Positions 303 to 56,837 of a DNA stretch of 64,000 bases are shown here, piece after piece. The notes beneath the pieces were generated by a model. It worked only from the letters and a program-made list of their open reading frames with translations. It ran no database searches and was not told where the DNA came from. Both the position numbers and the translations under genes were made by a program. The first letter of the stretch is position 1. Every line of letters begins with the position of its first letter. Origin of the DNA: Ardenticatenaceae bacterium (lineage in GTDB: Bacteria; Chloroflexota; Anaerolineae; Promineifilales; Promineifilaceae); contig JACKBR010000026.1 of the NCBI GenBank assembly GCA_020634495.1, positions 9,415-73,414 on the forward strand, in the 5' to 3' direction.

Positions 303-2957
303 ATGAGCCCGAAAAAGCAAACCGATAAATATCAGGAACTCAAAACATCATTAGAAACACTCCCCCACATTAGCCCCGCCCAGGTCGAGCACTGGATTCA
401 TATGCAAAAAGTGATTGACCAAACTCGTGACTATCTCATCCGCGCCGTGCCCCAGGCACAGCAAAGCGTGGATGAAGCCCAGAAAATTCTGGCCCAGCGC
501 ACCTACACCCTCGTCTTTTTTGGCGGCACGGGCGTAGGCAAAAGCACCCTCATCAATGGCTTGCTGGGGCGCAATTTGCTACCAACCGGGGCAGTAACGG
601 CCGTTACCGGCACTATCGTCTACATTGAACAAGCCCAGGAAGGTGAAGCAGAATCCCTCGTCCTCACCTACTGGACCCAAGACGAGTTTGCCCAGCGCGT
701 ACGCCGCCTTTGCCAACTCGGTGAGATCGACGGCTTCGACATCATCAACGACGGCGAGCGCGAACAGGCCCGCGAAGCCATCCAGCAAATCATGGCCGAC
801 GGAGCCGAAAACGCCAAAACCGAACGCGATGAATACCTGGAAATCCTCATCGACTGCATCGACTCCTACGAACACAACAAATCAATGTACACCGAAGGCC
901 CACCCGCGCCACGCAGCCTGGCCCTGGACAATGAAGACTCTCTCAAACACCTGCGCGAAGACGGCTTCAAAGGCAGCCAGCAGCGTCAAATTCGGCTCAT
1001 CAAATCGGCCACCTTCAAAATTCAACCACGTGCTGGGCAAGAGAATCTGCTCATGAACGGCTACCTGCGCATTGTCGATGTGCCCGGTTTGGGCGCAGGC
1101 ATGAAGCTGCACGAAGCCATCACCCTGGAAGAAATGAAGCGCGAAGACGCCATGATCGTCCTCGTCACCGATGCGGGACGCCAGCGTGTCGATGAACTGA
1201 AATCGCTTTCGGCCGTCAACTGGATTAAAGAGAATCGCCTCTTCGGCTTGAGCGGTGGCGATTTGGACGAAGCGGCCAGCAAAATCTTCCTGGCCGTGAA
1301 CGGCGGCAACATTCGCCAGGCGTTTGACCGCCTGAACTCTGGTCTACCGGAAGCCGAGCTGGAAGTAAAAGAAGTGACCCGATACATTGCGCCCAACTAC
1401 TGGGAACGGTACCGGGATCGCGGCCACAATCGGCCCTACTTTTTAGTTATGGCCCCGCCCGCGCTGTACGTGCAGGACCCGGACAACGCCCCAGAAGAGT
1501 TCGCCAGCGAAACCGAGCGCATTCTAAAAGTGTTCCGCGACCAACTGGGTCAGGTTAACGCCAGCGATCCGCTCGATCCGGAAACGGCCGCTTCCCTACT
1601 AAAACTCAGTGAAGTGCCCCTGCTGCGCGAAAAATTGATTACCTTCATTAAAACCGAGCGCGTGCGCAGCCAGCTGCGCGAAGCCGCCACTCGCATTCGC
1701 AACAGCCTCCAAGCGCTGCGCTTCTACTATGAAAAACAGCTCGCGGGGCGCGGCGTGCATCCGCCATTTGCCAACAGTTGGGAACAGCTGCAAGAGCGCC
1801 GCTTTGAAAACGTGATCATTCGCCAGCAAAAAGAGCTGCCGCGGGCCTTCCACAGCGCCCTGCTGGAGCTGAACAACCGCACCAACAGCGATTCCCGCTT
1901 CCGCAATATCCTGCGCCCCACGCTGAATGGCATCAAAGGCATGGTGCAAGACGCCGTGCAGCGCGAAGTAGAAACGCTGCTAGAAAACTACGGCACCGAA
2001 TATTGGGACGACCGCGATGTGACCTACGACAACCTGATCTGGGGCAGCAGCGGCATCGAAATTCCGATCAAGCGCATTCTGTTCCAGGTAGAGCTGATCA
2101 TGCAGGATTCCGTCTCCAAATTTATGCCCGAAGCGGCCGAAATCATCGCCGCTGAGCTGGAGCGCACCCTGGAAGCGCATGAAATCCACAGCCGCCTGCG
2201 CCGCGCCGCCTATGAACAGGAATACAGTTACGCCATTCCCGGCGAAACGGCCGATGGCCTGAACCTCGATGAAGCGTTCAACGTTCTGGTAGAGCGGGTA
2301 GGGCACAACTTCCGCCACGTTTGCCAGCAGGCAACCATGTACGAACTAATGAAGCCGGAACGGTCTGTACACCACCGCCTGGACGAAGGCGAGCGCGAAC
2401 TGTCGCTAAACACCAACGAGCGGCTGCTGGACGTGGCTCTAAACGGGGTTGAATCGGTGCGGCGCGAAATGGCCGCCAACATGCCAGCGGTTAACAACAC
2501 CCAGGCCGCTGCGCCTGCCGCTGTTGCCGACGAACCAGAAATCAACATCTCCATCCTGGACGAGCCAGCCCAACCCGCCGACGATTTAGGCATTAGCCTG
2601 ATTGGCGAATCAGGCGCGGTCACACCGCAGGCCGATCTGGAAATGAGCTATGCCGACAAACTGGATAACGTCGCCGTAAAGGTGAACCGCATCTTTGGTG
2701 AAATTCTCAACGACCTGTTCAACGACGATGACCTGCTGCCCCGGCTGCGCCGCCTCTTCTGGCTGGAAGCCACCAAGGCCGAGCGGGACTTCAACACCCA
2801 TATCGTCAAGCCGATGCTGAAGCAGCACGACCGCAATCTGCAAAAGCCAGAACTGCGCGAAGCGATGGAAATGGACCTGGAAAACGTGTCCGATCTCGAA
2901 GAGCTGATGCGCGTCTGGGACGGGCTGCACAAGTTGGAAACGAGTCTGGCAATATAA
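303..2957 (+). CDS. Dynamin-like large GTPase
   Basis: This 884-residue protein has a dynamin-type GTPase domain near its N-terminus. The P-loop is GGTGVGKS (residues 74-81), a Thr-rich switch I follows (TAVTGT, about 100-105), and the G3 motif is DVPG (259-262). A canonical G4 NKxD motif is not obvious. The rest is mostly charged helical sequence, as in bacterial dynamin-like stalks, with an acidic, Ala/Pro-rich linker near 740-790. No transmembrane segment is evident. Members of this superfamily remodel or tether membranes in a nucleotide-dependent way; the role here is inferred. It is the first gene of a same-strand run leading into the ubiquitin-like pathway, and AAGGAAGG sits just before the ATG. 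It could instead be an unrelated neighbour. Confidence 0.8.
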   Translation: MSPKKQTDKYQELKTSLETLPHISPAQVEHWIHMQKVIDQTRDYLIRAVPQAQQSVDEAQKILAQRTYTLVFFGGTGVGKSTLINGLLGRNLLPTGAVTAVTGTIVYIEQAQEGEAESLVLTYWTQDEFAQRVRRLCQLGEIDGFDIINDGEREQAREAIQQIMADGAENAKTERDEYLEILIDCIDSYEHNKSMYTEGPPAPRSLALDNEDSLKHLREDGFKGSQQRQIRLIKSATFKIQPRAGQENLLMNGYLRIVDVPGLGAGMKLHEAITLEEMKREDAMIVLVTDAGRQRVDELKSLSAVNWIKENRLFGLSGGDLDEAASKIFLAVNGGNIRQAFDRLNSGLPEAELEVKEVTRYIAPNYWERYRDRGHNRPYFLVMAPPALYVQDPDNAPEEFASETERILKVFRDQLGQVNASDPLDPETAASLLKLSEVPLLREKLITFIKTERVRSQLREAATRIRNSLQALRFYYEKQLAGRGVHPPFANSWEQLQERRFENVIIRQQKELPRAFHSALLELNNRTNSDSRFRNILRPTLNGIKGMVQDAVQREVETLLENYGTEYWDDRDVTYDNLIWGSSGIEIPIKRILFQVELIMQDSVSKFMPEAAEIIAAELERTLEAHEIHSRLRRAAYEQEYSYAIPGETADGLNLDEAFNVLVERVGHNFRHVCQQATMYELMKPERSVHHRLDEGERELSLNTNERLLDVALNGVESVRREMAANMPAVNNTQAAAPAAVADEPEINISILDEPAQPADDLGISLIGESGAVTPQADLEMSYADKLDNVAVKVNRIFGEILNDLFNDDDLLPRLRRLFWLEATKAERDFNTHIVKPMLKQHDRNLQKPELREAMEMDLENVSDLEELMRVWDGLHKLETSLAI

Positions 2958-2965
2958 ATTTAATC

Positions 2966-3058
2966 GAACACCTACCCCCACCCTAACCCTCCCCCTGGCA
3001 GGGGGAAGGAATTGGCTCCTCTCCCTTTGAGGGAGAGGGCTGGGGTGAGGGTGAAAAG
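2966..3058. repeat. Intergenic hairpin repeat (CCCTCACCCC family)
   Basis: Two adjacent hairpins fill the gap between the first two genes: CCCCC/GGGGG around 2991-3005, and a 9-bp stem at 3018-3026 with 3030-3038. The flanks (CCTACCCCCACCCTAACCC and GGCTGGGGTGAGGG) are themselves complementary. This is the style of widely dispersed bacterial intergenic repeats. It may attenuate read-through into the next gene. Confidence 0.6.
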
Positions 3059-3070
3059 TAGGAACGTCTC

Positions 3071-4267
3071 ATGACAGACCTTGCCACACAACCTTTGCTA
3101 CAAAAACTAGATGACGCGCATCTGCCTGTTTTCGCCTTGCGGCTGACCGAGTGGCTTATTGCTGACCTGAATAAAAGTGATGAGAGCGTGCCCGATTTCA
3201 CAGAATCGCGGGCCAAGGCGCTGCTGCGGGCTGCCGCTGTGGTGGATGACCCCACCCTGCACGATTTTGCGCGGTTGGTTGAAGGGGGCGGTACGGCCGT
3301 TCGCCTGGCCCTCCACAATTTACTGCAAGAAACTGGCCTCATTGAAGATGAAGAAGTTGGAGCTTTAGCAATTACAGTCTCCAGTCTCCAATCTCCAGTC
3401 TCCAATCCAGTCTCCTGGCTCTCACTGAGCATCGCCGCCCACGCCTATAAAAGCGGTTACCCGCTCTACCAGCTTGACCCCGCCTCGCCACCAGGCGAGT
3501 ACAGCCCCGCCGGACAGCTCATCAAACGGGCTGCCACATTTTTGCGGCAGCAAATCCAGCGCAGCGCCACCGAGCGAGACAAGCTGGGCAAAAAGCTGGC
3601 CTACAACCCTGGCGACGGCACGCCGACGCTGGACAGATTGCCCAACAACCAACCAATCGCTCCCGTGCCGCCCCACTTCCGCCCGCCGATTCCGGTGCGC
3701 TATCCAGAAGTGGCCAGGGAAACTCTGCACGTCAACGAAAACGAAAATATGCAAAACCAGCGACCGGCCACCCGCAACGCTCCCATCACCATTACCAACG
3801 ATGACATCATGCCAGCGGGGCGGCAGCCGGTGCGGATGCCAGAAATTCGCATCCAGGCAGACCAGGTGCCGCAGCAACGGCCAACACAACCTGCCCAACC
3901 GCGTTCCCGACCCAGCAGCAGTGGTGAAAATTTGGGAACGGCCGTTCGCCAACGATTCAGCCGCGACAAAGAGCCCCTGCGCAGCACCCGGCTCCGCGTT
4001 ATCGTGCAGGATGTGCAGGATGGCCCTGGACTGTACGGCATACAGGTGCAGGTGCGCTGCCAGGGCATCAAGGCCCACGTGGCTGGCACCACCAACCGCG
4101 ACGGCGTCTTCCTGTGTGAACTGCCCGTGCGCGCCCGTTCTGGCCTCACCTACGATGTAGACATTACCTGGCCCCGCGACCTGGGCGGCGAGGTGGAACG
4201 CAAATCGGTCACGCTGAACGTGGACCGTACTGAATTTAAGCTGCCTTTTTTCCGGCGTTTATCCTAA
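3071..4267 (+). CDS. Unrecognised protein with C-terminal beta-sandwich-like domain
   Basis: I do not recognise this 398-residue protein. The N-terminal 170 residues look helical. A long Pro/Gln/Arg-rich linker follows (about 200-300). The last 90 residues (about 305-398) have the alternating pattern of a carboxypeptidase-regulatory or Ig-like beta-sandwich, including GTTNRDGVF. The linker contains the motif PITITNDDI (238-246), nearly repeated at the N-terminus of the RING-like protein at 9150. Codons at 3374-3416 are formed by a dispersed CCAGTCTCC repeat kept in frame. No signal peptide or membrane segment is seen. Position between the dynamin-like GTPase and the E1 suggests a scaffold, substrate or adaptor; this is inference only. 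Confidence 0.7.
   Translation: MTDLATQPLLQKLDDAHLPVFALRLTEWLIADLNKSDESVPDFTESRAKALLRAAAVVDDPTLHDFARLVEGGGTAVRLALHNLLQETGLIEDEEVGALAITVSSLQSPVSNPVSWLSLSIAAHAYKSGYPLYQLDPASPPGEYSPAGQLIKRAATFLRQQIQRSATERDKLGKKLAYNPGDGTPTLDRLPNNQPIAPVPPHFRPPIPVRYPEVARETLHVNENENMQNQRPATRNAPITITNDDIMPAGRQPVRMPEIRIQADQVPQQRPTQPAQPRSRPSSSGENLGTAVRQRFSRDKEPLRSTRLRVIVQDVQDGPGLYGIQVQVRCQGIKAHVAGTTNRDGVFLCELPVRARSGLTYDVDITWPRDLGGEVERKSVTLNVDRTEFKLPFFRRLS
3374..3416. repeat. CCAGTCTCC dispersed repeat inside a coding sequence
   Basis: A run of CCAGTCTCC/CCAATCTCC units lies in frame in the gene at 3071 and encodes Ser/Val/Pro-rich residues. The same unit, as a full inverted repeat, lies between the two RING-like genes at 9578-9628. 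This suggests the intergenic repeat invaded the gene without breaking it. Confidence 0.65.
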
Positions 4268-4273
4268 AAAAAG

Positions 4274-4357
4274 TATGCCAGTCTGCGAGTTTGCAAGTCT
4301 GCGAGTAGCATTCAAACATCACAACTCGCAAACTTGCCACTCGCATACTCGCAAACC
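4274..4357. repeat. CTGCGAGTTTGCAAG inverted repeat
   Basis: The left part (CTGCGAGTTTGCAAGTCTGC) is matched in reverse complement by ACTCGCAAACTTGCCACTCGC on the right. It fills the gap before the E1 gene and ends only about 15 bases before its ATG, which lacks a clear Shine-Dalgarno sequence. Confidence 0.6.
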
Positions 4358-4373
4358 AAAAAATTAATAACAC

Positions 4374-5564
4374 ATGACCGAAACAACCGAACCCATCATC
4401 ATTACCGACCCAGACAGCGACCGTTACCACACCTTCGGCTACATCAGCTGGTGGCAGCAGGAGGTGGTGCGCAATGCCACCATTTTGGTCGTTGGCGCAG
4501 GAGCGTTGGGCAATGAAGTGCTTAAAAATCTGGCCCTCATGGGCATTGGCAATCTGCTCATTGCCGATTTCGACACCATCGAAGACAGCAATCTGAGCCG
4601 CTCTGTGCTGTTCCGCGCTTCGGATCGGGGCCGCCGCAAAGTGGATGCCGCGGCTGAGCGCGTCAAAGAGCTCAACCCGGACGTCAACGTGAAGACCTGG
4701 CACGGCAACATCAATTATGAGATGGGGCTGGGCGTTTTTCGCCACGTAGACGCCATCGTTGGCTGCCTGGACAACCGGGAAGCGCGCCTCTCTATCAATC
4801 GTTTTAGCTGGCAAATAAATCGGCCGTGGGTTGATGGCGCAATTCAAGAGCTAATGGGTATCGTGCGTGTCTTCTGGCCTGGCCAGGGGGCCTGTTATGA
4901 ATGTACCCTCACTGACCTGGACTACCAGATTATTAATTTGCGCTATTCCTGCCCACTGCTGGCCCGGCAAAACATTTTGCAGGGCAAGGTTCCCACCACG
5001 CCAACCAGCGCCTCCATCGTGGCCGCCTTCCAAACACAAGAAGCGTTGAAGCTAATTCACAACATGGAGGTTCAGCCCGGCAAAGGGTTGATGATCAATG
5101 GTCTGACCAACAACATTTACACCACAGAATATCCAGTTAAGGAAGGCTGCATGAGCCATGCGCGGCTGGAGCCAATTGTAGAGCTGGAGGAGTGTACGGC
5201 CGTATCCACCACCCTCTCTGATTTACTAGCCATCGCCAAAGAAAAGCTGGCCGACGATGCCGTCCTGGAATTTGATGGCGAAATTGTCACCACCATGCAC
5301 TGCCTGGACTGCGGCGAAGCGTTCCCCATCTTCCGCAAAATGGCCCGCCTGTACGAAAACGAATCCACCTGCCCCAACTGCGGTGGACGGCGCGAGATGA
5401 ACATGACCCACCGCATTGACGGCAGCGAAGATTTCCTGGCGCGCACCCTGGCAGAAACAGACGTGCCGCCATTGGGCATCATTCGTGCCCGCAGCGCCAG
5501 CCAGAAAAAGAGCATTTATCTGGAGCTAACTGGCGACAAAGAAACATTTTTTAACTTTGCCTGA
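4374..5564 (+). CDS. E1-like ubiquitin-activating enzyme (ThiF/UBA fold) with C-terminal zinc ribbon
   Basis: This 396-residue protein is predicted to adenylate the C-terminus of the ubiquitin-like protein and carry it as a thioester. The Rossmann loop is GAGALG (41-46), followed by the ADFDTIEDSNLSR segment typical of ThiF/E1 enzymes. CYECTL (C174, C177) followed by C193 in YSCPLL resembles the layout around the catalytic Cys of eukaryotic UBA3, so C193 is the best thioester candidate. A second zinc module, C310/C313 with C333/C336, lies in the C-terminal part. No ubiquitin-fold domain of the UBA1 type is seen. The Ubl and E2 genes follow directly, which separates it from MoeB/ThiF in thiamin or molybdopterin synthesis; no such genes are nearby. 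The start lacks a clear ribosome binding site. Confidence 0.88.
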   Translation: MTETTEPIIITDPDSDRYHTFGYISWWQQEVVRNATILVVGAGALGNEVLKNLALMGIGNLLIADFDTIEDSNLSRSVLFRASDRGRRKVDAAAERVKELNPDVNVKTWHGNINYEMGLGVFRHVDAIVGCLDNREARLSINRFSWQINRPWVDGAIQELMGIVRVFWPGQGACYECTLTDLDYQIINLRYSCPLLARQNILQGKVPTTPTSASIVAAFQTQEALKLIHNMEVQPGKGLMINGLTNNIYTTEYPVKEGCMSHARLEPIVELEECTAVSTTLSDLLAIAKEKLADDAVLEFDGEIVTTMHCLDCGEAFPIFRKMARLYENESTCPNCGGRREMNMTHRIDGSEDFLARTLAETDVPPLGIIRARSASQKKSIYLELTGDKETFFNFA

Positions 5565-5701
5565 GGGTTGCAACCCACACTGGCAAACTACGTAATAATA
5601 AATGATTTACCAAGTTGATTTGACTATAACAAACCACAGTGCACTATCCAGACGTGTGGCTCGATGGCAATTCAACCAATTAGAATGGAGGCTATCATAA
5701 A

Positions 5702-5968
5702 ATGGCAAGCATAAAAACAATTATCTACGATCCCACCGGCTCAAAGAAGACCCCGGTAGAACTTCCCGACGACGTTCCCATGCGGCGTTTGATTCCTGCC
5801 CTGGTTAGCAAAATGGGACTTCCCACCAGCCAGGGTGCAAATCCCATCACCTACCGGTTGGATCATCAATCCTCCGGCAAGCGGCTAAGCGACGATGAAT
5901 CCCTGGCCGATGCTGGTGTGGTTGAAGATGATATTTTGAATCTCTTCCCAGAAGTCACCGCTGGCTAG
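5702..5968 (+). CDS. Ubiquitin-like protein of YukD/EsaB-like type, ending in a single Gly
   Basis: This 88-residue protein has the length and strand pattern of a beta-grasp ubiquitin fold: an N-terminal strand (KTIIYDP), a central helix (MRRLIPALVSKMG), YRLDH, then the KRLSDDESLADAGV segment that matches the ubiquitin-like LxDxxSLxDAGI pattern of YukD/EsaB proteins. It ends in VTAG directly before the stop, so the C-terminal Gly is already exposed and no precursor tail needs removal. It has the best ribosome binding site in the cluster (GGAGG about 9 bases before ATG), in keeping with a need for more tag than enzyme. It is the likely protein tag handled by the adjoining E1 and E2. It has one Gly rather than the usual GG. 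Confidence 0.85.
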   Translation: MASIKTIIYDPTGSKKTPVELPDDVPMRRLIPALVSKMGLPTSQGANPITYRLDHQSSGKRLSDDESLADAGVVEDDILNLFPEVTAG

Positions 5969-5976
5969 GCATTTAC

Positions 5977-6001
5977 CCTCACCCAAAGTTCTTGGGTGAG
6001 G
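5977..6001. terminator. Perfect hairpin between the Ubl and E2 genes
   Basis: A perfect 10-bp stem (CCTCACCCAA at 5977-5986 with TTGGGTGAGG at 5992-6001) and a 5-base loop begin eight bases after the Ubl stop. There is no T-run, so it may stabilise the upstream mRNA end or partly attenuate transcription rather than terminate it. This would favour tag over enzymes. Confidence 0.55.
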
Positions 6002-6085
6002 CAACCCTTAATTCCAACCATAACTTGCGTGATTGCTTCGCCTGGCTGCCAACGGCCAGGCTCAATCCCAACCAACTACAAAGCT

Positions 6086-6619
6086 ATGTCTTTTAATATT
6101 CGGGAAACCAGATTGCGCAACGACCACGAGCGAATTCGTGCCCTGGTCAACCGCAGCGAGTTTATTCACATTCTAACCACAGAAGGCGATCCAGTAGAAA
6201 AATATCTCATCCGCTTTACCTGCAAAGGGGTGGAAAAGATTAATTCTGCTGGTAAGCCACTCTTGCGTGAGGCACATGAAGTGAGTATTTATCTTCACGC
6301 TGAATACCCACTGAAGCAACCTCAACTTAAGTGGCACACCCCTATTTTTCATCCCAACATTCATGTGACGGGGGCGGTGTGCATTGGGGCCTGGTGGCCA
6401 GCCAAAACGCTAGATGAGCTGCTGCTCACGCTGGGTGAAATGGTGCAGTACAAGAATTACGATCCAAAAGACCCGATGAACTCGAAGGCGGCTGCCTGGG
6501 CGCTGCGACACAAGCAGATCTTCCCCATTGACCGGCGCAGTCTGAAAGGACAATCACTGGAAGATTTGATTGTGCTTGGGGAGGAAGAATCGGATGAACT
6601 CGGCATCAACATTCTCTAG
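6086..6619 (+). CDS. E2-like ubiquitin-conjugating enzyme (UBC fold)
   Basis: This 177-residue protein carries the main marks of a ubiquitin-conjugating enzyme. The strand YPLKQPQLKW leads to FHPN (HPN motif, H89-P90-N91), then GAVCIG with the catalytic Cys at C99, then a conserved Trp pair, TLDELLLTLGEMV and DPKDPMN, matching the post-Cys LLSI...PDDPL segment of eukaryotic E2s. It should receive the Ubl from the E1 by transthiolation. I chose ATG 6086 (MSFNIRET); an in-frame GTG at 5996 lies inside the upstream hairpin and would add residues unlike the family. Its 3' end overlaps the next gene by 26 bases, so translation of the E2 and JAB genes is probably coupled. Confidence 0.9.
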   Translation: MSFNIRETRLRNDHERIRALVNRSEFIHILTTEGDPVEKYLIRFTCKGVEKINSAGKPLLREAHEVSIYLHAEYPLKQPQLKWHTPIFHPNIHVTGAVCIGAWWPAKTLDELLLTLGEMVQYKNYDPKDPMNSKAAAWALRHKQIFPIDRRSLKGQSLEDLIVLGEEESDELGINIL

Positions 6620-7817
6620 CGGCCGTTCTGCGCCACAACCGCAACCTGAACCAGAACCTATGATTGGCCAGCCCGAAATGGAGAGCCTACGGGAACGGCC
6701 GTTCACCAATTTTACCGCCAACACCCACCTGCATGGCCAGCTACCCGCTGCCAATCAGGTTGTCGTCAGCCACCGGCAGCAAGCTATTCGCCAGATTCGG
6801 GCGCACAGCATTAGCAACTTGCGCTCAGAGCTGGGCGGGGTGCTGCTTGGCCATGCTTACCGCGACGGGGGAAAACTTCTGGTGGAAGTGATCGCCGCCC
6901 TGCCTGCCCGCAACGACGATCATGGCCCAATTCATTTTACCTTTACCGCCGATGCCTGGAGCCAGATTCACCACGAGCGTGCCCAAAAATTCCCAGATTT
7001 GGAGATTGTGGGCTGGTTCCACACCCATCCCGGCCTGGGGGTTTTTTACTCCAGCGATGACGTGGTGGTGCATACGGCCGCATTCACTTTACCCTGGCAT
7101 GTCGGCCTGGTGGTGGATCCGCTGGGCAATGAAGCCAGCTACTTTGGCTGGCAAGATGGCCAGCTGGCCCCCATCGGCGGCTATTTTGAGCAGCTCGATG
7201 AGCAAGAGACGCCCGTTGCTCCCTGGCGTGTGGCCAAAACAGAAGTGTGGGCCACCCGAACCACAGAGCAATTTTACGCCTCTTATGAATCTGCTGAAGG
7301 CGAAGGTGGGTTCTTCCCGGCAACCTTCAACCAGGAACGGCCGTTTGCCCTTTCCAACACAGCCACATTGGCAATTCTGGGCTTTGTCTTAGGGTTTTTT
7401 TTGCTTTTTGGCTGGGTCGTGGCCCTCAACCGGCAGATTAACAGCCTGGAGAGCGTCATTACCAGCCTGGCAGACGAAACCTCGATCAATGCGGTAAGCT
7501 GCGGTAACCCACAGCTGCGCATTTTGGCCCCGGTTGCCCAAAGCCAGATTGCTGCTGGGCAGGACGTGCCCATTTTTGGTACGGCCGTTCACCCAGAAGC
7601 CGCCCGTTACCAAATTGAGTACCGGCTGGCTGGGGGAGAAAGCTGGGAATTGGCTGGCGTGCAGCGCCGCCAAACCGCCCTTGGCCTCCTGGTCAATTGG
7701 GACACCAGCGAGCTGTTCCCTGGCCTTTACGACCTGCGTCTGAAAGCGGTAGACCGGCAAAACATTTCGCTGCCCGGCACACCTTCTTGCCAAATCGCGG
7801 TTGAATTGACACCTTAA
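6594..7817 (+). CDS. Membrane-anchored JAB/JAMM isopeptidase with outer beta-sandwich
   Basis: This 407-residue protein starts with a Pro/Glu-rich tail, then a JAMM metallopeptidase domain (about 50-215). All zinc and catalytic residues are present: E79 in SELGGVLLG, H143 and H145 in HTHPG, S153 and D156. It should cut isopeptide or peptide bonds after the Ubl. A single transmembrane segment follows (about 257-279), then a 125-residue domain ending in ELFPGLYDLRLKAVDRQ, typical of Ig-like or FlgD-like beta-sandwiches, probably outside the cell. ATG 6594 follows GGGGAGGAAG and overlaps the E2 gene; an upstream TTG at 6570 is less likely. Because the Ubl needs no processing, it probably removes tags, and near the membrane. 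Confidence 0.87.
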   Translation: MNSASTFSSGRSAPQPQPEPEPMIGQPEMESLRERPFTNFTANTHLHGQLPAANQVVVSHRQQAIRQIRAHSISNLRSELGGVLLGHAYRDGGKLLVEVIAALPARNDDHGPIHFTFTADAWSQIHHERAQKFPDLEIVGWFHTHPGLGVFYSSDDVVVHTAAFTLPWHVGLVVDPLGNEASYFGWQDGQLAPIGGYFEQLDEQETPVAPWRVAKTEVWATRTTEQFYASYESAEGEGGFFPATFNQERPFALSNTATLAILGFVLGFFLLFGWVVALNRQINSLESVITSLADETSINAVSCGNPQLRILAPVAQSQIAAGQDVPIFGTAVHPEAARYQIEYRLAGGESWELAGVQRRQTALGLLVNWDTSELFPGLYDLRLKAVDRQNISLPGTPSCQIAVELTP

Positions 7818-7876
7818 CCTGAATGGTTGCCCATCCACACAAACCCTCCGAGAGGCTTTGTGATCTGGAATTATTT

Positions 7877-9025
7877 ATGACTGACACAACAACCCATTAC
7901 GTGGCCATTATTCAAATTCATTTACCTGAACATGAAACGGCCGTTTCCGCCAATATTCGCCTGACGCCTACAGAGCTGGTGCCGCTAGACGGCCACCACA
8001 AAATGCTGCACGACTGCACCCTGGCCGAATTACAAGATTTTGCGGACCAAACCGAAGCAGAAATTTGGCAAACCTACCGGCAAATCAAGCTGGCAGATTT
8101 GGCCAAAGATGGCACTGTGAAAATGGCAATGGATGTGGTGGATGCCGCTGGCGAGCCGGTAGCGCCCTCGCGGGAATGGCTGGCAAAAATGGTGGTAGAA
8201 ACGGCCGTTTCTGCCCAAATTGACGAACTGCCAGACGCTCCACCAGCCGCCGAAGAAGATTCACCGGAAACAGAACCGGCCACCGCAGAAATGGAGGCAA
8301 TCCCCACTGAGGAGATTGAACAGGAACCGGCAGAAGCGGAGCCGGAGACCGAACCCGAACCGCCACCCGTCGAGCCTGCTGCTGAACCGGCAGATGCGCT
8401 GGACAACATTGTTGTTTCAGAGCCAGAACCGGTGCATGAAGAGCGCGAAGCGCCCGAAGAAACGGCGCAAAAGACGGTCATTGCTCCCAGCCAGGCCAGA
8501 GTGCGGCTGGCCGGACGCCATCTGCCGGTGGGTGATCCCACCCCGGCGGCGGTAGACATCACCATAGAAGAACCAGCTTTACGCGCTGCCCAGGCCCACG
8601 CCCTGAGTAGCCTAAACCGGGAGGTGGCCGGGGTGCTCATCGGCCCACGTCCAGAAAAACAGCCAGACGGCCGTTACCGGGTACACATCCTGGACACGAT
8701 CATCGCCAAGTACACGGTAATGCACGGAGCCAGCGTCACCTACACCCCGGAAAGCTGGCGCTACATGCGCGACAAACTTCACGAGCGGTATCCTGATGAA
8801 ACGGCCGTTATCGTCGGCTGGTACCATACCCACCCCGGTTTTGGCATCTTTTTATCCGGGATGGATTTATTTATTCACCAAAACTTCTTTACCCAGATTT
8901 GGCACGTCGCCTTTGTGCTGGATCCCCGTGCCCAAACCAGCGGCTTTTTTAGCTGGGACCGGCAAAAAACTCAGGTCTCCCGGCATAATTTTTACTGGCC
9001 AGAGTGGGCCGATGGGAGTTGGTAA
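7877..9025 (+). CDS. JAB/JAMM isopeptidase with acidic linker
   Basis: This 382-residue protein has an N-terminal domain of about 110 residues that I do not recognise (TTHYVAIIQIHLPEHE), a very acidic Glu/Pro-rich linker (about 118-200) and a C-terminal JAMM domain (about 225-382). The catalytic set is complete: E249 in REVAGVLIG, H317 and H319 in HTHPG, and D330 in the SxxD motif. The domain is closer to its upstream neighbour than to RadC-type JABs, suggesting duplication. No membrane segment is seen, so this is the likely soluble counterpart of the anchored JAB. I chose ATG 7877; ATG 7823 is possible, but the extra residues look non-native and contain an imperfect hairpin (CAAACCCTCC/GAGAGGCTTTG). 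Confidence 0.85.
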   Translation: MTDTTTHYVAIIQIHLPEHETAVSANIRLTPTELVPLDGHHKMLHDCTLAELQDFADQTEAEIWQTYRQIKLADLAKDGTVKMAMDVVDAAGEPVAPSREWLAKMVVETAVSAQIDELPDAPPAAEEDSPETEPATAEMEAIPTEEIEQEPAEAEPETEPEPPPVEPAAEPADALDNIVVSEPEPVHEEREAPEETAQKTVIAPSQARVRLAGRHLPVGDPTPAAVDITIEEPALRAAQAHALSSLNREVAGVLIGPRPEKQPDGRYRVHILDTIIAKYTVMHGASVTYTPESWRYMRDKLHERYPDETAVIVGWYHTHPGFGIFLSGMDLFIHQNFFTQIWHVAFVLDPRAQTSGFFSWDRQKTQVSRHNFYWPEWADGSW

Positions 9026-9026
9026 C

Positions 9027-9149
9027 TTTCAGTAATCGGTATACAGTGTTCAGTAACCAGATAGTCCGAAATGAGTGCTGTTTACTGTTTACTGACAACT
9101 GATTACGGTATGTGTATAATGCCCTTAACGGAAGACTGATTACTGAAAA
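9027..9149. repeat. CAGTAATC/GATTACTG intergenic repeat
   Basis: Repeated and inverted units of CAGTAATCGG, CAGTGTTCAGTAACC, TTTACTGTTTACTGACAACTGATTAC and GACTGATTACTG fill the gap between the second JAB gene and the first RING-like gene. The same family appears at 42243-42314. The right half holds a strong promoter (9092-9120). Confidence 0.65.
9092..9120 (+). promoter_or_regulatory. Promoter for the RING-like genes, inside a dispersed repeat
   Basis: A -35 box CTGACA (9092-9097), a 17-base spacer and a perfect -10 TATAAT (9115-9120) lie within the repeat. Transcription would start near 9127, some 23 bases before the RING-like gene. This would let the two RING-like genes be expressed apart from the E1/E2/JAB genes. 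Confidence 0.6.
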
Positions 9150-9572
9150 ATGGACGAACAGGAAATGCCCCCCCTCACCATTACGAATAATGACATTCAG
9201 GCAGCCAACCAGCTGAGCCTGCACTGTCCCATTTGTGCCAATCCGGTAGAAAAGTTTGTAGAGGATCGGGAATTGCAGCCGGTGATTTGCGGCAAATGCG
9301 GCACGCTCTATCACAAAACATGTTGGGAGCTGGGCGGGGGCAAATGTGCAGTGTTGGGCTGTGGCCATACCAGGTTCAAACTGTACGGCGCACCCACCAG
9401 CCCAGTTTTAAGCATCAAATACTCCGATTTGCCACGGCCGTCGGCAAACGGCCGTTCCAGCCAGACCAAACACTTAAAGGAAGAACAGCGCCGCCAGGTA
9501 GAACAACTGCGACGTCCAAGCCTGCTGCAAAGGCTGTTCAAATGGCTTTTGGACCAAATACGAATTGGTTAA
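9150..9572 (+). CDS. RING-like zinc finger protein, candidate E3 ligase
   Basis: This 140-residue protein has eight zinc ligands in the order C26-C29-C47-C50-H55-C58-C66-C71, a C4HC3 binuclear treble clef as in prokaryotic RING-like, RING-CH and PHD fingers. The HKTCW and GGKCAVLGCG segments are typical of the prokaryotic RING group. Such fingers can bring a charged E2 to a target, so it is a candidate E3, here inferred from the adjoining E1/E2 genes. Before the finger lies PLTITNNDI (8-16), close to PITITNDDI in the protein at 3071. The C-terminus (about 105-140) is a basic amphipathic helix ending in LLQRLFKWLLDQIRIG, which could lie on a membrane. No clear Shine-Dalgarno sequence at normal spacing is present. 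Confidence 0.82.
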   Translation: MDEQEMPPLTITNNDIQAANQLSLHCPICANPVEKFVEDRELQPVICGKCGTLYHKTCWELGGGKCAVLGCGHTRFKLYGAPTSPVLSIKYSDLPRPSANGRSSQTKHLKEEQRRQVEQLRRPSLLQRLFKWLLDQIRIG

Positions 9573-9577
9573 TAAGA

Positions 9578-9628
9578 GATTGGAGACTGGAGATTAGAGA
9601 TTAAATCTCCAGTCTCCAGTCTCCAATC
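9578..9628. repeat. GATTGGAGACTGGAG inverted repeat
   Basis: GATTGGAGACTGGAGATT on the left is matched by AATCTCCAGTCTCC and CTCCAATC on the right, forming a long hairpin between the two RING-like genes. It ends 13 bases before the second ATG and leaves no visible Shine-Dalgarno sequence. It is the intergenic relative of the in-gene repeat at 3374-3416. Confidence 0.7.
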
Positions 9629-9641
9629 CCCAACCTCCCCC

Positions 9642-10130
9642 ATGCTCACCTCCATCACCATCACCAAGCAATCCCCATTTTTGGGTGAAGAGTGTGCCCT
9701 GTGCAAAAATCCGTTTGCGCCGGGGGATACGGTCATTGTTTGCCCCGCAGACAGCAGCCGCCACCACACGCACTGCTGGCGCGCCAACGGCAACAAATGT
9801 GCCGCTTACGGCTGCCGGGGGCACGGCGACATTGAAGAGGAAACTCCTGCGCCACAACCTCAACCGACACCCCCGCCGAACAATCCAACCACAACCCGGC
9901 CCGCAACAACTGCACCGGCAAACGGCCGTTTGCAACAAGCAGCGCGACGGTTTGGCTGTGGGCAAGGCTGTTTGCTCATCGCCGTTGCCATCGCCATTAT
10001 TTTTTTCTCAATTGGCTGTTTTGGCCTGTGGGCCATTGCCGACTACATCATGCTGGAAGTGCTGGGATGGCAGTACCGCGTCCCTGAGGCTGGCGCTTTT
10101 TTACCCCACGTTTTGCATCTAGTAATTTAA
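9642..10130 (+). CDS. Membrane-anchored RING-like protein, candidate E3 ligase
   Basis: This 162-residue protein aligns with the RING-like finger at 9150: C18, C21, C34, D37, H42, C45, C53 and C58. The fourth zinc ligand, Cys in its neighbour, is Asp37 here. HTHCW and NKCAAYGC are the conserved prokaryotic RING segments. A Pro/Thr-rich linker follows (about 68-95), then a basic patch (RRFGCGQGC) and one transmembrane segment (about 110-133). By the positive-inside rule the finger faces the cytosol. Together with the anchored JAB this points to tagging at the membrane. It is the last gene of the + strand run; photolyase follows on the other strand. Confidence 0.8.
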   Translation: MLTSITITKQSPFLGEECALCKNPFAPGDTVIVCPADSSRHHTHCWRANGNKCAAYGCRGHGDIEEETPAPQPQPTPPPNNPTTTRPATTAPANGRLQQAARRFGCGQGCLLIAVAIAIIFFSIGCFGLWAIADYIMLEVLGWQYRVPEAGAFLPHVLHLVI

Positions 10131-10223: not shown

Positions 10224-11666
10224 CTACCGGGGGGCTGCTTCGCGGGCGTTTTTGTAGGCGGCCAGGGCACGCTCGCGCGCTTCGTGGTGGGCTACAATGG
10301 GCGCGGGATACTTCTGCCCAATGCGGCTGCCGCATGAACTTTGGACGGATTCTGGCATCTGCCACGGCTCGTGGATGAATTTTTGGGGGACGTCAGCCAA
10401 TTCTGGCAGCCATTTGCGGATGTAACGGCCGTCTGGATCAAACTTTTTAGCCTGCGCTGTAGGATTAAAGATGCGAAAGTATGGCGCGGCATCCGTGCCG
10501 GTTCCCGCCGCCCACTGCCAGCCACCGTTGTTGGCGGCCGGATCGCCATCCAGCAAATGCTGCATGAAGAATTTCTCGCCCCAGCGCCAGTCGATGAGCA
10601 AATCTTTAACCAAAAATGAAGCAACAACCATGCGGGCGCGGTTGTGCATCCAGCCCGTTGTGGTGAGCTGGCGCATGGCTGCATCAACGAGAGGGTATCC
10701 GGTACGGCCGTTGCCCCAGGCCCTAAACTCAGCTTCATCATTGCGCCAGGCAATGGCGTCGTATTCTGGCCGAAAATTGCCCCGCAAAACATGGGGAAAA
10801 TGGGCCAAAATGTGGCTGTAAAACTCGCGCCAGATCAATTCGCTAAGCCACGTTTCGGCCCCTTGGCGGGCTGCTTTGCTGCTGGCATTTTCCAGACAGG
10901 AAACGGCCGTCGCCACCGCCTGCCTCGCTGAGATCATGCCAAAGCGCAAATAAGGCGAAAGCTGGGAGGTGCCCGGCACAGCCACAAAGTCTCGCGCCTG
11001 CGCGTACCGGCCAATCGCTTCCTGGGCAAATTCGCGCAAACGTCGCTGTGCTTCGGCTTCGCCAGGCACAAATGGGACGCTGTCTGGCAGGGCTAGGCTG
11101 GCAGGCAAAGGTTCAGATTGAATGGCTTCGGGGATGAGCAGCTTTTCTGGCGCAGGCAAAATGTCGGTGAGTTTGGGCAACGGCCGTTTCAGCCAGGCAT
11201 TTTTCTTGAACGGGGTAAATACAGTGTACGGCTCGCCATCCGGTTTGAGCACCGTGCCGGGCGGGTGAACCACCAGGCCCGCTTCCAGATGCAGCGGCAA
11301 TTCTTGGGCAATTTGGCCGTCACGGCGGCGGGCATAGCGGCTAAAATCTTCCTCGGCAAAAATGGCGGATGCGCCTGTTTCTGCTAGCAGCGCAGACAAC
11401 ACTTTTTGGGGACGGCCGTAGCGTACAATGAGCCGGCTGCCCCGCTGGCGCAAATCGGCATCGAGTTGGCGCAGCCCAGCCCACAAAAAAGCGGTGCGCT
11501 TTTGGCCCACATAGGCCGACTTTTCAAAAAAAGGATCAACAATAAAAAGGGGGATGACCTGCCTGGCGGTGGCCAGCGCAGCAGCCAGAGCCTGGTTATC
11601 TGTCAGACGCAAATCACGACGAATCCACCAAACGGCCGTTTCCTGCAACGATTCTGTAGTAGCCAT
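10224..11666 (-). CDS. phrB: Deoxyribodipyrimidine photolyase
   Basis: This 480-residue protein matches class I CPD photolyases in length and layout. The N-terminal antenna domain begins with [16 protein letters not shown] (about 12-27). The C-terminal FAD domain contains [53 protein letters not shown] and the final [14 protein letters not shown]. It uses blue or near-UV light to split cyclobutane pyrimidine dimers through a reduced flavin. I chose the ATG at 11666 (MATTESLQ); the longer open frame upstream does not match the family. It is transcribed alone and divergently from the M32 peptidase gene. Confidence 0.93.
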
Positions 11667-11805
11667 AGACAAGGAGTATACACAACTATCCATGTTTTGC
11701 ACAGTATTTATCCAATATTCGCCCACCCCACCCGGCGGCTCTTTCTTTGGATAAACGGCCGTTTTTCGTTAAACTTCCAGCACATTCCCAAAAAGGACGG
11801 TTCGC

Positions 11806-13311
11806 ATGAGCACAAATTTTCAAAAGCTACTCGAAAAAGTTTACGAAATCCACGATATTGAAAAAGCAACAGGTGTCTTAAGCTGGGACAAAGAAACCAA
11901 TATGCCCAAGGCTGGCACAGAGATGCGCATCAAGCAAATGACCACGTTGCGCAGGCTTAGCCACGCCATGTTTACCTCGGATGAAATGGGGGAGTTGATT
12001 GAAACGGCCGCTGCTGAAATAAATGGCGCTCCTTACGCAGGCAACGAAGCCAGCCTCATTCGCTACTTGCGCCGCAGCTATGCCGAATCCCGCCAGCTGC
12101 CCCCAGAATTTGTCCGACGGGTCAGCGAGGTAAGCGGCAAAGCCAATCCCGCCTGGGTAGAAGCGCGGGCCAACAATGATTTTGCCCACTTCCGGCCCCA
12201 TCTGGAAGAAGTGATCAAGCTGGTGCAAGAAATGGCCGAACTGTACGGCTATGAGGACGAAAAATACGATCCGCTGCTGGACAAATTTGAACACGGCATG
12301 AAAACGGCCGAAGTCCGGGCCATCTTCAACGCGGCCAAAGAGGAACTTATCCCCCTGCGCCAGGCAATTGCAGAACGGGGCACGGCCGTTGATGACCGCA
12401 TTGTCCACCAACCATTCCCCATCGATAAGCAAAAAGAATTCGCCCATTACATCGCCGACGCGGTGGGCTATGACTTTAGTCGCGGGCATTTGGGCACGGT
12501 GGTGCATCCCTTTGCCACCAGCTTCAGCCGCAACGATGCCCGCATCACCACCCGCTGGTATCCTGACTTTTTAAACCCCTCCCTGTTCGGCACACTGCAC
12601 GAATCTGGCCATGCCATGTACGAGCAAGGCACGCATCCAGACCTGGTTCGCACGCCGCTGGCCCGCGGCACCTCCAGCGGCATCCACGAATCCCAATCCC
12701 GCATGATTGAAAATATCGTCGGGCGCAGCCTGGGCTTTTGGCAGGCGCATTATGCCAAATTGCAGGAATTGTTCCCAGAGCAGCTGGGCGGGCATGACGT
12801 GATGGCCTTTTACCGGGCCGTCAACAAGGTACAGCCTTCTTACATCCGGGTAGAAGCGGATGAACTCACCTACAATTTCCACATTATTTTGCGGTTTGAG
12901 CTGGAGCAGGCGATGCTCAACGGCGAGTTGGCTGTGGCCGATTTGCCTACGGCCTGGAATGACAAAATGCAGGAGCTGTTGGGCGTTGTGCCCCCCACCG
13001 ATTCGGAAGGCTGTTTGCAGGACATACACTGGACGCGGCCTGGATTTGGCTACTTTCCCACGTATGCGCTGGGCAATCTGTACGCGGCGCAATTTTATGA
13101 AACGGCCGTTGCCCAAAATCCCACCATCGCCGAAGAAATGGCCCAGGGCAAGACCCAGGCCCTGGTAGCCTGGCTACGCGAAAATATTCACCAACACGGC
13201 CGTAAATTCACCCCGTCTGAATTGGTGCAGCAAATCACAGGTGGCCCGCTCACGCATAAACCATTTATGCGCTACGTCACCCAAAAGTTTAGCCAGATTT
13301 ACGAACTTTAG
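11806..13311 (+). CDS. M32-family metallocarboxypeptidase (Taq type)
   Basis: This 501-residue protein has the usual length and sequence of thermostable carboxypeptidase 1 (M32). The zinc motif is HESGH (265-269), with a downstream Glu expected in HESQSRMIEN (about 295-304). Family hallmarks include SWDKETNMPKAG near the N-terminus, TTRWYPDFLNPSLFGTLHESGHAMYEQG, and GYFPTYALGNLYAAQFY. It removes C-terminal amino acids from peptides, usually in the cytosol; no signal peptide is present. It is a single gene followed by a strong bidirectional hairpin. Confidence 0.92.
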   Translation: MSTNFQKLLEKVYEIHDIEKATGVLSWDKETNMPKAGTEMRIKQMTTLRRLSHAMFTSDEMGELIETAAAEINGAPYAGNEASLIRYLRRSYAESRQLPPEFVRRVSEVSGKANPAWVEARANNDFAHFRPHLEEVIKLVQEMAELYGYEDEKYDPLLDKFEHGMKTAEVRAIFNAAKEELIPLRQAIAERGTAVDDRIVHQPFPIDKQKEFAHYIADAVGYDFSRGHLGTVVHPFATSFSRNDARITTRWYPDFLNPSLFGTLHESGHAMYEQGTHPDLVRTPLARGTSSGIHESQSRMIENIVGRSLGFWQAHYAKLQELFPEQLGGHDVMAFYRAVNKVQPSYIRVEADELTYNFHIILRFELEQAMLNGELAVADLPTAWNDKMQELLGVVPPTDSEGCLQDIHWTRPGFGYFPTYALGNLYAAQFYETAVAQNPTIAEEMAQGKTQALVAWLRENIHQHGRKFTPSELVQQITGGPLTHKPFMRYVTQKFSQIYEL

Positions 13312-46294: not shown

Positions 46295-47131
46295 ATGGCC
46301 CTAAAAGGCAACCTGCGCGATTTCTCAACAACTCAGTTATTAAACCTCATCAACCTGGCTAGAAAAACAGGCACACTTTCCATCCAGACAGATTCCGAGT
46401 CGGCTCGAATGTCTTTTCGTGAAGGCAAGCTTATCTATGCCCACATGGGCCATGACAATGGCAACCATCTTGCGCAAATATTGCAAAGCAGCGGCAAGCT
46501 CTCGCCTGAACAGGCCCAAGTTATCCAATCTCACGCCGAAGGCAAAAGTGATAAAGAGATCGGCCATTTGCTGGTTACGGCCCGCCGGGTTACCCAAAAC
46601 GACATTATCCAAAGCGTGCGCCAAAATGTATTGGACACCGTGTACAAGCTGTTTACCTGGGGAGAGGGTGTCTTTCGTTTTGACGCCAACAAGCTGCCAA
46701 ACAGCGGCTATATCACCATTCCTATTGATTTAGAAAGCGTGATTATGGAAGGCAGTCGCCGCCTGAAGGAATGGGAAATTTTACAGGATGAACTGCCGGA
46801 TTTGGATGTATCGCTTCGTTTTACAGATCGGCCCGATGCGCGTCTAAGAAATATTAACCTTACGGTAGAGGAGTGGCGTGTGGTCTCTTTTGTCAATCCA
46901 CGCAACTCTATTCGTCAAATTGCTAAGGCAAATAATCTTAGTGATTTTGAAATTCGCCGTATTGTGTATGGCATGTTGCAAGCCGGGCTGGTTGAGTTTG
47001 TTAATCAGCCGAAACCCGCTCCAGAAAAAAGAGACGCTGCTTCTCAGCAACAGAAAAGCCGTTCTGAACCATCACCAGCGGTTAAACGCTCGGTTGTCGT
47101 TCGTTTGATTGACCGCATCCGGGGTCTGTAG
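46295..47131 (+). CDS. DUF4388 (PatA-like N-terminal) domain protein
   Basis: This 278-residue protein begins ALKGNLRDFSTTQLLNLINLARKTGTLSIQ, the signature of DUF4388, a domain found in PatA-like response regulators and gliding or polarity proteins. The middle (GKSDKEIGHLLVTARRVTQNDIIQSVRQNVLDTVYKLFTWGEGVFRF) is the second half of the module, and the C-terminal part looks like a small winged-helix. No receiver domain is present. Such proteins often sit next to MglA/Arf-like GTPases, as here, and may act as regulators of them. It has a strong promoter at 46148. Confidence 0.86.
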   Translation: MALKGNLRDFSTTQLLNLINLARKTGTLSIQTDSESARMSFREGKLIYAHMGHDNGNHLAQILQSSGKLSPEQAQVIQSHAEGKSDKEIGHLLVTARRVTQNDIIQSVRQNVLDTVYKLFTWGEGVFRFDANKLPNSGYITIPIDLESVIMEGSRRLKEWEILQDELPDLDVSLRFTDRPDARLRNINLTVEEWRVVSFVNPRNSIRQIAKANNLSDFEIRRIVYGMLQAGLVEFVNQPKPAPEKRDAASQQQKSRSEPSPAVKRSVVVRLIDRIRGL

Positions 47132-47250
47132 GTTGCTTAGTTTGGCGGTACGGCCGTAACCCAACAAACCACGCTGTCCCATTTATCATGATTGGGAGCC
47201 AAAACAAATAATACTCAAAGTCATCGCACAAAGAAGAAGGTAGTAACTTT

Positions 47251-47793
47251 ATGCAAGCTGTCAAAATGGTAATCACTGGCCCGTTTTCAGCCGGGAAAAC
47301 CCAGTTCATTGGGTCTGTAAGTGAAATTGATGTCGTCTCGACTGAGCGAAAAATTTCGAGCACTGCCGAACAAGTAAAAGAGAGCACAACGGTGGCTATG
47401 GATTTCGGCCGTATTACCGTTGGCGACGATCTTGTACTCTATCTATTTGGCACACCAGGCCAACGCCGCTTTGATTTCATGTGGGACATTTTGTCTCAAG
47501 GTATGTTGGGCTTTGTGGTCATGGTAGACAGCACCAAGCCAGAAACGTTCCGGGAAGCCAAACGAATTTTGGAAACTTTTGAGAGTTACGCATCTACCCC
47601 TTTTGTTGTCGCTGCTAATAAACAGGACATGGAAGATGCCTGGGAACCTGAAGATCTGCGAATCATCCTCCGCCTTAGACAAGATGTAAAAATCTTGCCC
47701 TGCACCGCCACCGATAAGGAAAGCGTTAAGAATGTTTTGCTAGAATTGCTTTATTCTATTTTAGACCAGCTAGATCAAGAAAACGGCGAATAA
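47251..47793 (+). CDS. Small Ras/Arf-like GTPase (MglA/COG2229 type)
   Basis: This 180-residue GTPase has the P-loop GPFSAGKT (10-17), G3 in LYLFGTPGQRRFDFMW, G4 ANKQD and G5-like CTATD. The FGTPGQ form of G3 is typical of the COG2229 Gtr/MglA-related group in bacteria. It is a molecular switch; bacterial relatives control cell polarity, motility or sensing. The DUF4388 gene 119 bases upstream on the same strand is its usual companion. No GTPase-activating (MglB/roadblock) protein gene is seen nearby. Confidence 0.9.
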   Translation: MQAVKMVITGPFSAGKTQFIGSVSEIDVVSTERKISSTAEQVKESTTVAMDFGRITVGDDLVLYLFGTPGQRRFDFMWDILSQGMLGFVVMVDSTKPETFREAKRILETFESYASTPFVVAANKQDMEDAWEPEDLRIILRLRQDVKILPCTATDKESVKNVLLELLYSILDQLDQENGE

Positions 47794-48133
47794 CTGTTTA
47801 ACGTGACCTTTACACCTCCTTTACCTGCTTTTCACAGTGTTGCTATCGGCTAAATGCTACTATTTTTGGTGTGCATATGTTCACGAAACAATGCCGTTCC
47901 AGCGCACCAATTTCTCACTGAAATGAGTCGCTAGGCAGCAGCTTCTTTTTCAAGATGTCGCATACACATTGTTAATAATATAAATCATGCGTATGGCTTT
48001 TGTATTAAGGGCCATGAGCAAGCCGAATAGCCATTGTCATGCTTTTTTTGCTTAAGTAGGTAAATGGGGAAACGGCCGTTTACGAATCACCAACATTGCC
48101 ACCAGGCAAAATAACGGGGTATCTGAGGTTAGT
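47794..48133. other. Gap between the GTPase and hydrolase genes
   Basis: No gene is seen. The stretch is AT-rich, contains one ACGGCCGT palindrome near 48072, and may hold a promoter for the hydrolase gene. A - strand or + strand RNA gene is not evident. Confidence 0.45.
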
Positions 48134-48952: not shown

Positions 48953-48956
48953 CGGC

Positions 48957-49595: not shown

Positions 49596-49662
49596 GTTTA
49601 GCCGCCTGTTATAATGTTTCATCATTTAGCCAACCAAGCAGTGCCTATAAAGAAATATTTTT

Positions 49663-50949: not shown

Positions 50950-51026
50950 GCCTGACAGAAAGTCACTATGTAAGGGACAGAATTACCATTGAACACGAAT
51001 TCTTTCTCGGTACACTCAAATTTATT

Positions 51027-52172: not shown

Positions 52173-52191
52173 TCTGCCAAGGAACAAGCTC

Positions 52192-53085: not shown

Positions 53086-53175
53086 TCAATCATGCCGCAT
53101 TTAGGTAACTGCCATTAGCAGTGCCAAATATTTGTGTAACGTAATAGAAGTAACGGCTGGGGTTTGACACTTATC

Positions 53176-56787: not shown

Positions 56788-56837
56788 CCTATTTTCAATC
56801 ACGGAATGCTCCTGGCAGCCAATTGGAAAAAGAGCTT

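Follow-up and report, generated by a model that had tools for sequence, protein, structure and literature searches.

A conserved gene set for predicted ubiquitin-like conjugation, with membrane parts and a linked dynamin-like GTPase, in Promineifilales (Chloroflexota)

Nine genes on one strand

The window analyzed here, 64,000 nucleotides of contig JACKBR010000026.1 (forward-strand positions 9,415 to 73,414) from an Ardenticatenaceae bacterium of the order Promineifilales (Chloroflexota; assembly GCA_020634495.1), carries a gene set of the kind predicted for conjugation of a ubiquitin-like protein (Ubl), with the gene for a dynamin-like protein (DLP) at its upstream end. A list of open reading frames (ORFs) and Pfam searches recovered nine ORFs, all on the + strand and spanning window positions 303-10130, which are the genes, order and strand proposed in an earlier sequence-only reading of this DNA. 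The set is real, conserved and of a predicted kind, and it includes membrane parts.

The first ORF (303..2957, +) encodes the DLP, an 884-residue dynamin-like GTPase that scores above the cut-off for Pfam Dynamin_N (1e-11) and matches by profile the solved SynDLP Slr0869 (2.8e-9), mitofusin-2 (5e-4) and BDLP (2e-3), consistent with its initial assignment. A helical stalk and a membrane-binding paddle are features of bacterial dynamin-like proteins alongside the dynamin-type GTPase domain, the feature found here. The protein is 94% identical to one from Candidatus Leptofilum sp., Leptofilum being a genus of Promineifilales, and its variable linker holds two short conserved islands (approximately residues 747-755 and 761-769) in which I749, I751 and D753, together with D761 and I764, are kept in 19/19 aligned sequences. 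The second ORF (3071..4267, +) encodes a 398-residue protein, here called UNK, with no Pfam family above cut-off and no match in the PDB. Homologues of UNK number 458 at an E value of 1e-3 (the best 120 of the 458 were examined), and the protein has conserved N- and C-terminal regions and a variable linker that carries an ITITxDD(I/L) motif.

The next three genes encode an E1-like activating enzyme (4374..5564, +; 396 residues; ThiF 2.2e-53), a Ubl of the YukD family (5702..5968, +; 88 residues; YukD 5.3e-12) with the C terminus ...FPEVTAG, and an E2 conjugating enzyme (6086..6619, +; 177 residues) with an HPN motif and Cys99. The E2 match to UQ_con (1.3e-13) was scored on the longer ORF 5996-6619; the ATG at 6086 is most likely the true start, as a start there is conserved across relatives. 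Key residues of E1, E2 and the two JAB peptidases described below had been read as intact, and they proved near-invariant across relatives (residue counts take in only rows with a letter at the site): Cys193 of E1 is kept in 42/42, and H89, P90 and Cys99 of E2 in 49/49, with N91 invariant across 21 aligned rows. The best solved relative of the E2 is the yeast E2-24 kDa (1.6e-11). For the E1, the nearest solved structures are UBA7, UBA1 and SAE2 (3.7e-26 to 6e-23), followed by ThiF (1e-18) and Cap2 (8.5e-10), yet NCBIfam profiles rank ThiF (134 bits) and MoeB (121 bits) ahead of Ube1 (74 bits), and the label "eukaryote-like" was dropped for this protein. The C-terminal part of the E1 is zinc-ribbon-like, with a Pfam zinc ribbon match below threshold. 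All 48 Ubl relatives carry TAG in the tail (variants EVTAG, QVTAG and EITAG), which suggests that the glycine is the functional terminus. TAG is the exact end in 44/48; the other four (L027, L028, L034 and L046) add one to five residues of no common sequence, implying a processing step there.

Downstream lie two genes for JAMM peptidases and two for RING-like proteins. JAB1 (6660..7817, +; longest ORF from 6570; Prok-JAB 2e-9) has an N-terminal JAMM peptidase and one transmembrane (TM)-like helix, and JAB2 (7874..9025, +; longest ORF from 7823; JAB 4.5e-10) has an acidic linker and a C-terminal JAMM peptidase; both match Pfam JAB as well as Prok-JAB. Among the available ATGs, 6660 and 7874 are probably the start codons. 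The JAMM residues E87, H151, H153, S161 and D164 of JAB1 (numbered from the 6570 start) are kept in 46/46 relatives; in JAB2, H318 is kept in 48/48 and E250, H320, S328 and D331 in 47/48 each. The nearest solved relatives of JAB2 are Rpn11 proteins, and it also matches an Rpn11-like chain, 6fjv, presumably from Caldiarchaeum; its N-terminal part has no Pfam match above cut-off. RING1 (9150..9572, +; Prok-RING_1 6.2e-7) is of the C4HC3 type, has no TM-like stretch and carries an N-terminal LTITNNDI motif, and RING2 (9642..10130, +; Prok-RING_1 6.9e-8) has an N-terminal C3H2C3 domain and a C-terminal TM-like stretch. The two RING proteins narrowly pass the Prok-RING_1 gathering score of 29.1 bits (29.7 and 32.8 bits), and like the E2 they fall in the families that the sequence-only reading had named. 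All eight Cys/His ligands of RING1 are kept in 34/34 relatives and those of RING2 in 27/27, save H41 (26/27). Four residues separate the last two ligands of RING1, and a C4HC3 pattern with such spacing agrees with the account of prokaryotic RINGs in PMC11354881.

TM-like stretches occur in 35/35 complete relatives of JAB1 and 22/23 of RING2, which bears out, at the level of sequence, the proposal that two members are membrane anchored; among JAB2 relatives they occur in 5/38, and none was found in relatives of DLP (18 tested), UNK, E1, Ubl, E2 or RING1. The part of JAB1 that follows the TM-like helix gives a weak match below cut-off to Big_7, a bacterial Ig family (E 0.041), and may form an Ig-like domain across the membrane from the peptidase.

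Gene order, the GTPase unit and a shared motif

A single scan of genome contigs with the E2 alignment yielded 48 loci (46 from Chloroflexota, one from Armatimonadetes and one from Zipacnadia), in which neighboring genes were called by tblastn with the window proteins. The genes found keep their order and strand in 46/46 Chloroflexota loci. Where at least 4.2 kb lie downstream of E2, JAB1, JAB2 and RING1 were each found in 30/30 loci and RING2 in 21/30. Upstream, Ubl was found in 37/37 and E1 in 34/37 loci with at least 2.5 kb; the clusters at L034, L041 and L046 are without E1, and their genomes hold E1 elsewhere. With at least 8 kb upstream, DLP was found in 14/25 and UNK in 15/25 loci, and the complete nine-gene set is present in 11/20 loci with both flanks long. 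The linkage expected from the earlier reading is thus upheld as to order, but DLP and UNK stand beside the core in only part of the loci.

DLP and UNK form a unit of their own beside the E1-Ubl-E2-JAB-JAB-RING(-RING) core. UNK adjoins DLP in 17 of the 18 DLP loci retrieved; L057, where it does not, covers little sequence, and a longer locus from that genome (L015) has UNK 1.6 kb further on. In two genomes (G009 and G012) DLP lies on a different contig from E2 with UNK still adjoining it, and in four others (G005, G008, G010 and G034) it is on the E2 contig, approximately 12, 14, 16 and 19 kb away. A tree built from E1, Ubl, E2 and JAB2 places DLP-linked loci in both branches of its deepest split; linkage between DLP and the core is therefore probably the ancestral state, with later loosening. 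A separate observation upstream of the GTPase gene concerns a conserved gene of about 200 codons on the opposite strand, present in 11 loci (including L032:2679-3365, -) and acetyltransferase-like by eye.

Relatives of the window cluster also have a tenth gene, absent from the window, that encodes a CAP-domain (PF00188) protein of about 215 residues. It was found in 15 loci (14 of L001-L046, and L082; e.g., L016:7550-8200; Pfam 1.3e-13 at L019), where it sits before E1, between UNK and E1 wherever UNK was seen. The N-terminal half of the CAP protein, the UNK linker and the RING1 N terminus have in common a motif, [ILV]x[IV][TS]x[DEN]D[ILV], which is present in 29/35 RING1, 17/28 UNK and 12/15 CAP relatives (often in two copies in CAP) and in 1/41 JAB2 relatives. 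Because the motif was defined on the window RING1 and UNK and on CAP examples, these family counts are descriptive; its rarity is seen in 367 control proteins, with no occurrence in 324 proteins from 400 kb of genome G111 (118,905 residues) or in the 43 other proteins of the window (15,698 residues). A hydrophobic strand followed by acidic residues resembles SUMO-interacting motifs. Alternatively, the motif may be a phospho-threonine site for an FHA-type reader, an FHA protein being encoded in one sister cluster (L072, below).

A narrower DNA pattern, which omits several codons and so is not a full count, hit seven places across G111. Four encode the motif in frame, namely the CAP gene, two genes for exported-looking proteins and a gene for a SHOCT-like protein. 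The last (L106; G111:C1:350308-350826, -) lies outside the cluster and has ITITEDDV in a linker; as a lead to a client it was dropped, since a slightly looser motif occurred in just the G111 row and one other among 30 relatives.

Distribution, selection and known relatives

Among 43 Promineifilales genomes searched (80% completeness requested; the genome of the window is not one of them), E2 was matched in 40, of which 39 hold the window's subfamily and one (G248) a distant form. DLP is present in 36 of the 39, counting partial matches at contig ends, and was not found in G042, G044 and G046. The three genomes without an E2 match differ among themselves: G326 has E1, DLP in two contig-end pieces and two RING proteins, so that its missing E2 may be an assembly gap; the draft G327 is taken up below; and in G291 no E1, E2, DLP or RING was found. 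E2 is matched in 37 of 296 genomes from the class (20 strongly, 15 at approximately 1e-38 to 1e-44 and two more weakly), and the 20 genomes with DLP are the same 20 with the strong E2, all of them belonging to the order set. An expansion of E3 candidates elsewhere in the genome was considered and discarded, as no genome of the 43 has more than two Prok-RING_1 matches.

Ratios of dN to dS (Nei-Gojobori, against three close relatives) are rough, given dS values of 0.66-1.61. They are lowest for Ubl (0.016-0.033) and E2 (0.022-0.025), which are under strong purifying selection; DLP and E1 follow at 0.036-0.063 (DLP 0.036-0.061), then RING1 (0.044-0.091), UNK and the JABs (0.076-0.161) and RING2 (0.17-0.19). 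Of the flanking genes, photolyase gave 0.13-0.17 and carboxypeptidase Taq 0.05-0.07.

These data bear on an anti-phage role, which the sequence-only reading had raised as a possibility. In such an account the locus would be a defense system of the Bil or cyclic-oligonucleotide-based anti-phage signaling system (CBASS) kind, with the GTPase as its membrane-acting effector. E1, E2, JAB and Ubl do occur in Bil and CBASS, the GTPase gives weak matches to the PADLOC models LeoBC and LeoA (2e-9), and E1 and the JABs match the PADLOC E1-E2, BilD and JAB models on shared domains. Rather than being patchy, however, the set is present almost throughout one order and evolves slowly: this E2 is in 39/43 order genomes, it did not turn up in 50,697 phage records or viral contigs (one distant plasmid match reached 33% identity), and no PADLOC model was matched by Ubl, E2, UNK or CAP up to an E value of 10. 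A defense island was rejected as the leading interpretation on the grounds of order-wide presence, low dN/dS and the lack of E2 matches in phage records, and the defense account is considered highly improbable.

As described in PMC11354881, a Bil operon brings together Ubl, E2, JAB and E1, with two Ubl domains in BilA, a CEHH motif in the BilB E2 and both an inactive and an active adenylation domain in BilD; the window set has instead a single-domain 88-residue Ubl, an HPN-type E2, a 396-residue E1 with one ThiF domain, two RINGs and a DLP. The E1 matches the BilD model over 63 residues only, and the features that define Bil were not found. For CBASS, E1 and E2 are separate genes here, and no nucleotidyltransferase family was found among the nine proteins; type II CBASS is recognized by an E1-E2 fusion (Cap2) together with a CD-NTase.

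Proteasomal degradation was likewise set aside, since PF00227, which includes HslV-type subunits, was found in 0/43 Promineifilales genomes (the same search was positive in 10/14 controls; Lon, Clp and FtsH types were not searched). With no proteasome found in the genomes searched, the set falls outside ubiquitin-proteasome systems, and tagging, if it occurs, would likely be regulatory or feed another protease; it is considered likely non-degradative. A variant in which the tag marks proteins for quality control or degradation, read by a non-proteasome protease of the Lon, Clp or FtsH type or helped by an M32 carboxypeptidase, draws on the neighborhood of the cluster. Of 27 loci that extend 8.5 kb or more downstream of E2, 10 have a gene for the M32 carboxypeptidase Taq near the cluster, and in six of the 10 (L014, L015, L016, L019, L029 and L045) it is the next gene after the final RING gene, on that strand and 66-236 bp away; a view of it as always separated from the cluster by other genes was therefore wrong, and the gene may be part of the cluster in some lineages. 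In the window, a photolyase gene and then the M32 gene lie past the cluster, at 10224-13311. M32 was, however, not seen in 17/27 loci, and no unfoldase family scored above cut-off among the nine proteins; together with the missing proteasome, this makes a degradation tag very unlikely.

The closest general description is that of prokaryotic RING-type Ubl conjugation systems, reportedly predicted by Burroughs, Iyer and Aravind in 2011 as RING-finger systems with E1, E2, JAB and a YukD-like Ubl. The window has the ThiF-type E1 with its catalytic Cys, the HPN-like E2 with its Cys, the YukD-like Ubl with a C-terminal Gly, eight-ligand Prok-RING domains and JABs; a C-terminal ubiquitin-fold domain of the E1 also belongs to the description of these systems. 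Relative to the 2011 systems as outlined here, the window appears to add the linked DLP and UNK, a TM-bearing RING2, a TM-bearing JAB and the shared docking-type motif. The contributions of the present analysis are the dynamin link, the shared motif, the order-wide distribution and the conserved TAG tail. A literature search, which covered few subscription papers and so is weak evidence of absence, showed no bacterial Ubl operon joined to a dynamin among the papers listed.

Fifteen sister clusters from the class (L067-L081) share E1, E2, Ubl and one or two JABs with the window. They differ in that the E2 ORF also matches a Ubl profile in 14/15, and no DLP was found in these loci or their genomes, so that the RING-type Ubl system seems older than its link to DLP. 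Two sister RING proteins tested (L072 and L075) fall slightly short of the Pfam cut-off for Prok-RING_1, and N-terminal TM-like stretches are present in all four tested (L068, L072, L074 and L075). L072 encodes an E1 with a GntR domain, followed by FHA and VWA genes, and L075 has an FHA-JAB.

Beyond the class, the set is reminiscent of the Caldiarchaeum subterraneum operon, which comprises E1, E2, a RING (C3H2C3), a deubiquitinase and a Ubl according to PMC11354881. RING2 is also C3H2C3; the window set differs in being bacterial, in its YukD-type Ubl and linked DLP, and in that no proteasome was found in the order. By its name and abstract, RNF112 (PMC12012479), a vertebrate member of the dynamin superfamily, joins a RING name to a dynamin-type GTPase; it is a single eukaryotic protein, and no homology is claimed. 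The window DLP is like SynDLP (Slr0869), BDLP and the mitofusins in its GTPase domain by profile. To our knowledge, none of these three has been reported beside Ubl genes.

Elsewhere in the window, ten lower-GC genes on one strand (46295-58003, +) have the look of a signaling cluster: a DUF4388 protein, a Ras/Arf-like small GTPase, two alpha/beta hydrolases, a V4R protein, a hexapeptide transferase, a dehydrogenase-like protein, two response regulators and a 1207-residue GAF/PAS histidine kinase.

A candidate membrane-linked tagging pathway

The preferred interpretation, assigned a probability of roughly 0.45, is that DLP and UNK and the E1-E2-RING-JAB-Ubl set make up one membrane-linked, reversible, non-degradative tagging pathway that acts on or through the GTPase. 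Its parts differ in strength: that the set performs conjugation is quite probable, that the pathway sits at the membrane is rather likely, and that the GTPase is a client or effector of tagging is plausible but somewhat less likely than not.

In such a pathway, a JAB would expose the Ubl glycine where the tail carries extra residues, and E1 would adenylate that glycine and hand the Ubl through Cys193 to Cys99 of the E2. RING1, which has no TM-like stretch, and RING2, which has one, would serve as E3s, with RING2 restricting tagging to what is predicted to be the inner membrane face. JAB1 and JAB2 would strip the tags, JAB1 perhaps in response to a cue from outside. The ITxDD motifs of RING1, UNK and CAP and the two DLP islands would dock one common partner, most simply the Ubl, and the output would be control of membrane remodeling by the GTPase rather than proteasomal proteolysis.

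Several observations weigh against this interpretation. DLP lies away from the core in 11/25 testable loci; G006 and G041 carry it on a different contig from E2, even though more than 50 kb of contig flank E2 in both directions. E2 occurs without DLP in four Chloroflexota genomes (G042, G043, G044 and G046) and in the outgroups G047 and G048, and the draft G327 has DLP with no E1, E2 or RING found. The 20 co-occurrences in the class sample all fall inside one order and count as one clade, not as independent events. The tree was built on chosen taxa, of which 37/41 were kept; each of the four that dropped out is from a genome in which DLP is missing or apart from the core. In 9/30 loci tblastn did not call RING2, that Prok-RING_1 proteins act as E3s is predicted, and membrane topology was derived from sequence alone. 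The E1, taken alone, would fit a cofactor-type relative as well, ThiF and MoeB outranking Ube1; the Ubl terminates in AG rather than GG, and YukD of Bacillus subtilis is reported as not conjugated (PMC1779556). The shared motif was defined after it had been seen, its partner is hypothesized, and it is absent from the DLP, E1, E2, Ubl, JAB1 and RING2 families and from the sister-cluster proteins.

A number of these points would also fit two functionally separate housekeeping units, a seven-gene Ubl core with substrates of its own and a GTPase and partner that are engaged in envelope maintenance and are neither tagged nor read by the core. The loci with DLP apart, its retention of UNK in two such genomes (G009 and G012), the genomes with E2 or DLP alone and the 15 sister loci and genomes without DLP are all expected under that account. 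It explains less readily why DLP and the core are linked in both branches of the deepest split, why the same rare motif occurs in UNK and RING1, why DLP and this E2 are held by an identical 20 genomes of the class sample, and why DLP remains on the E2 contig in four of the cases where it is apart. Two separate units are regarded as a serious, if not favored, possibility. The single membrane-linked pathway could also be extended to an order-wide, non-degradative core form of ubiquitin-type signaling that steers membrane remodeling by a dynamin, with a membrane-spanning, outside-sensing JAB and a tag-reading motif shared among its parts, as a counterpart to the way ubiquitin governs dynamins and membrane traffic in eukaryotes; in this full form it is unlikely.

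Bacterial Ubl conjugation is known experimentally mainly from defense. If the predicted pathway works, it would be a case of ubiquitin-type tagging as bacterial housekeeping, joined to membrane remodeling, and would bear on the role that such systems had before eukaryotes.

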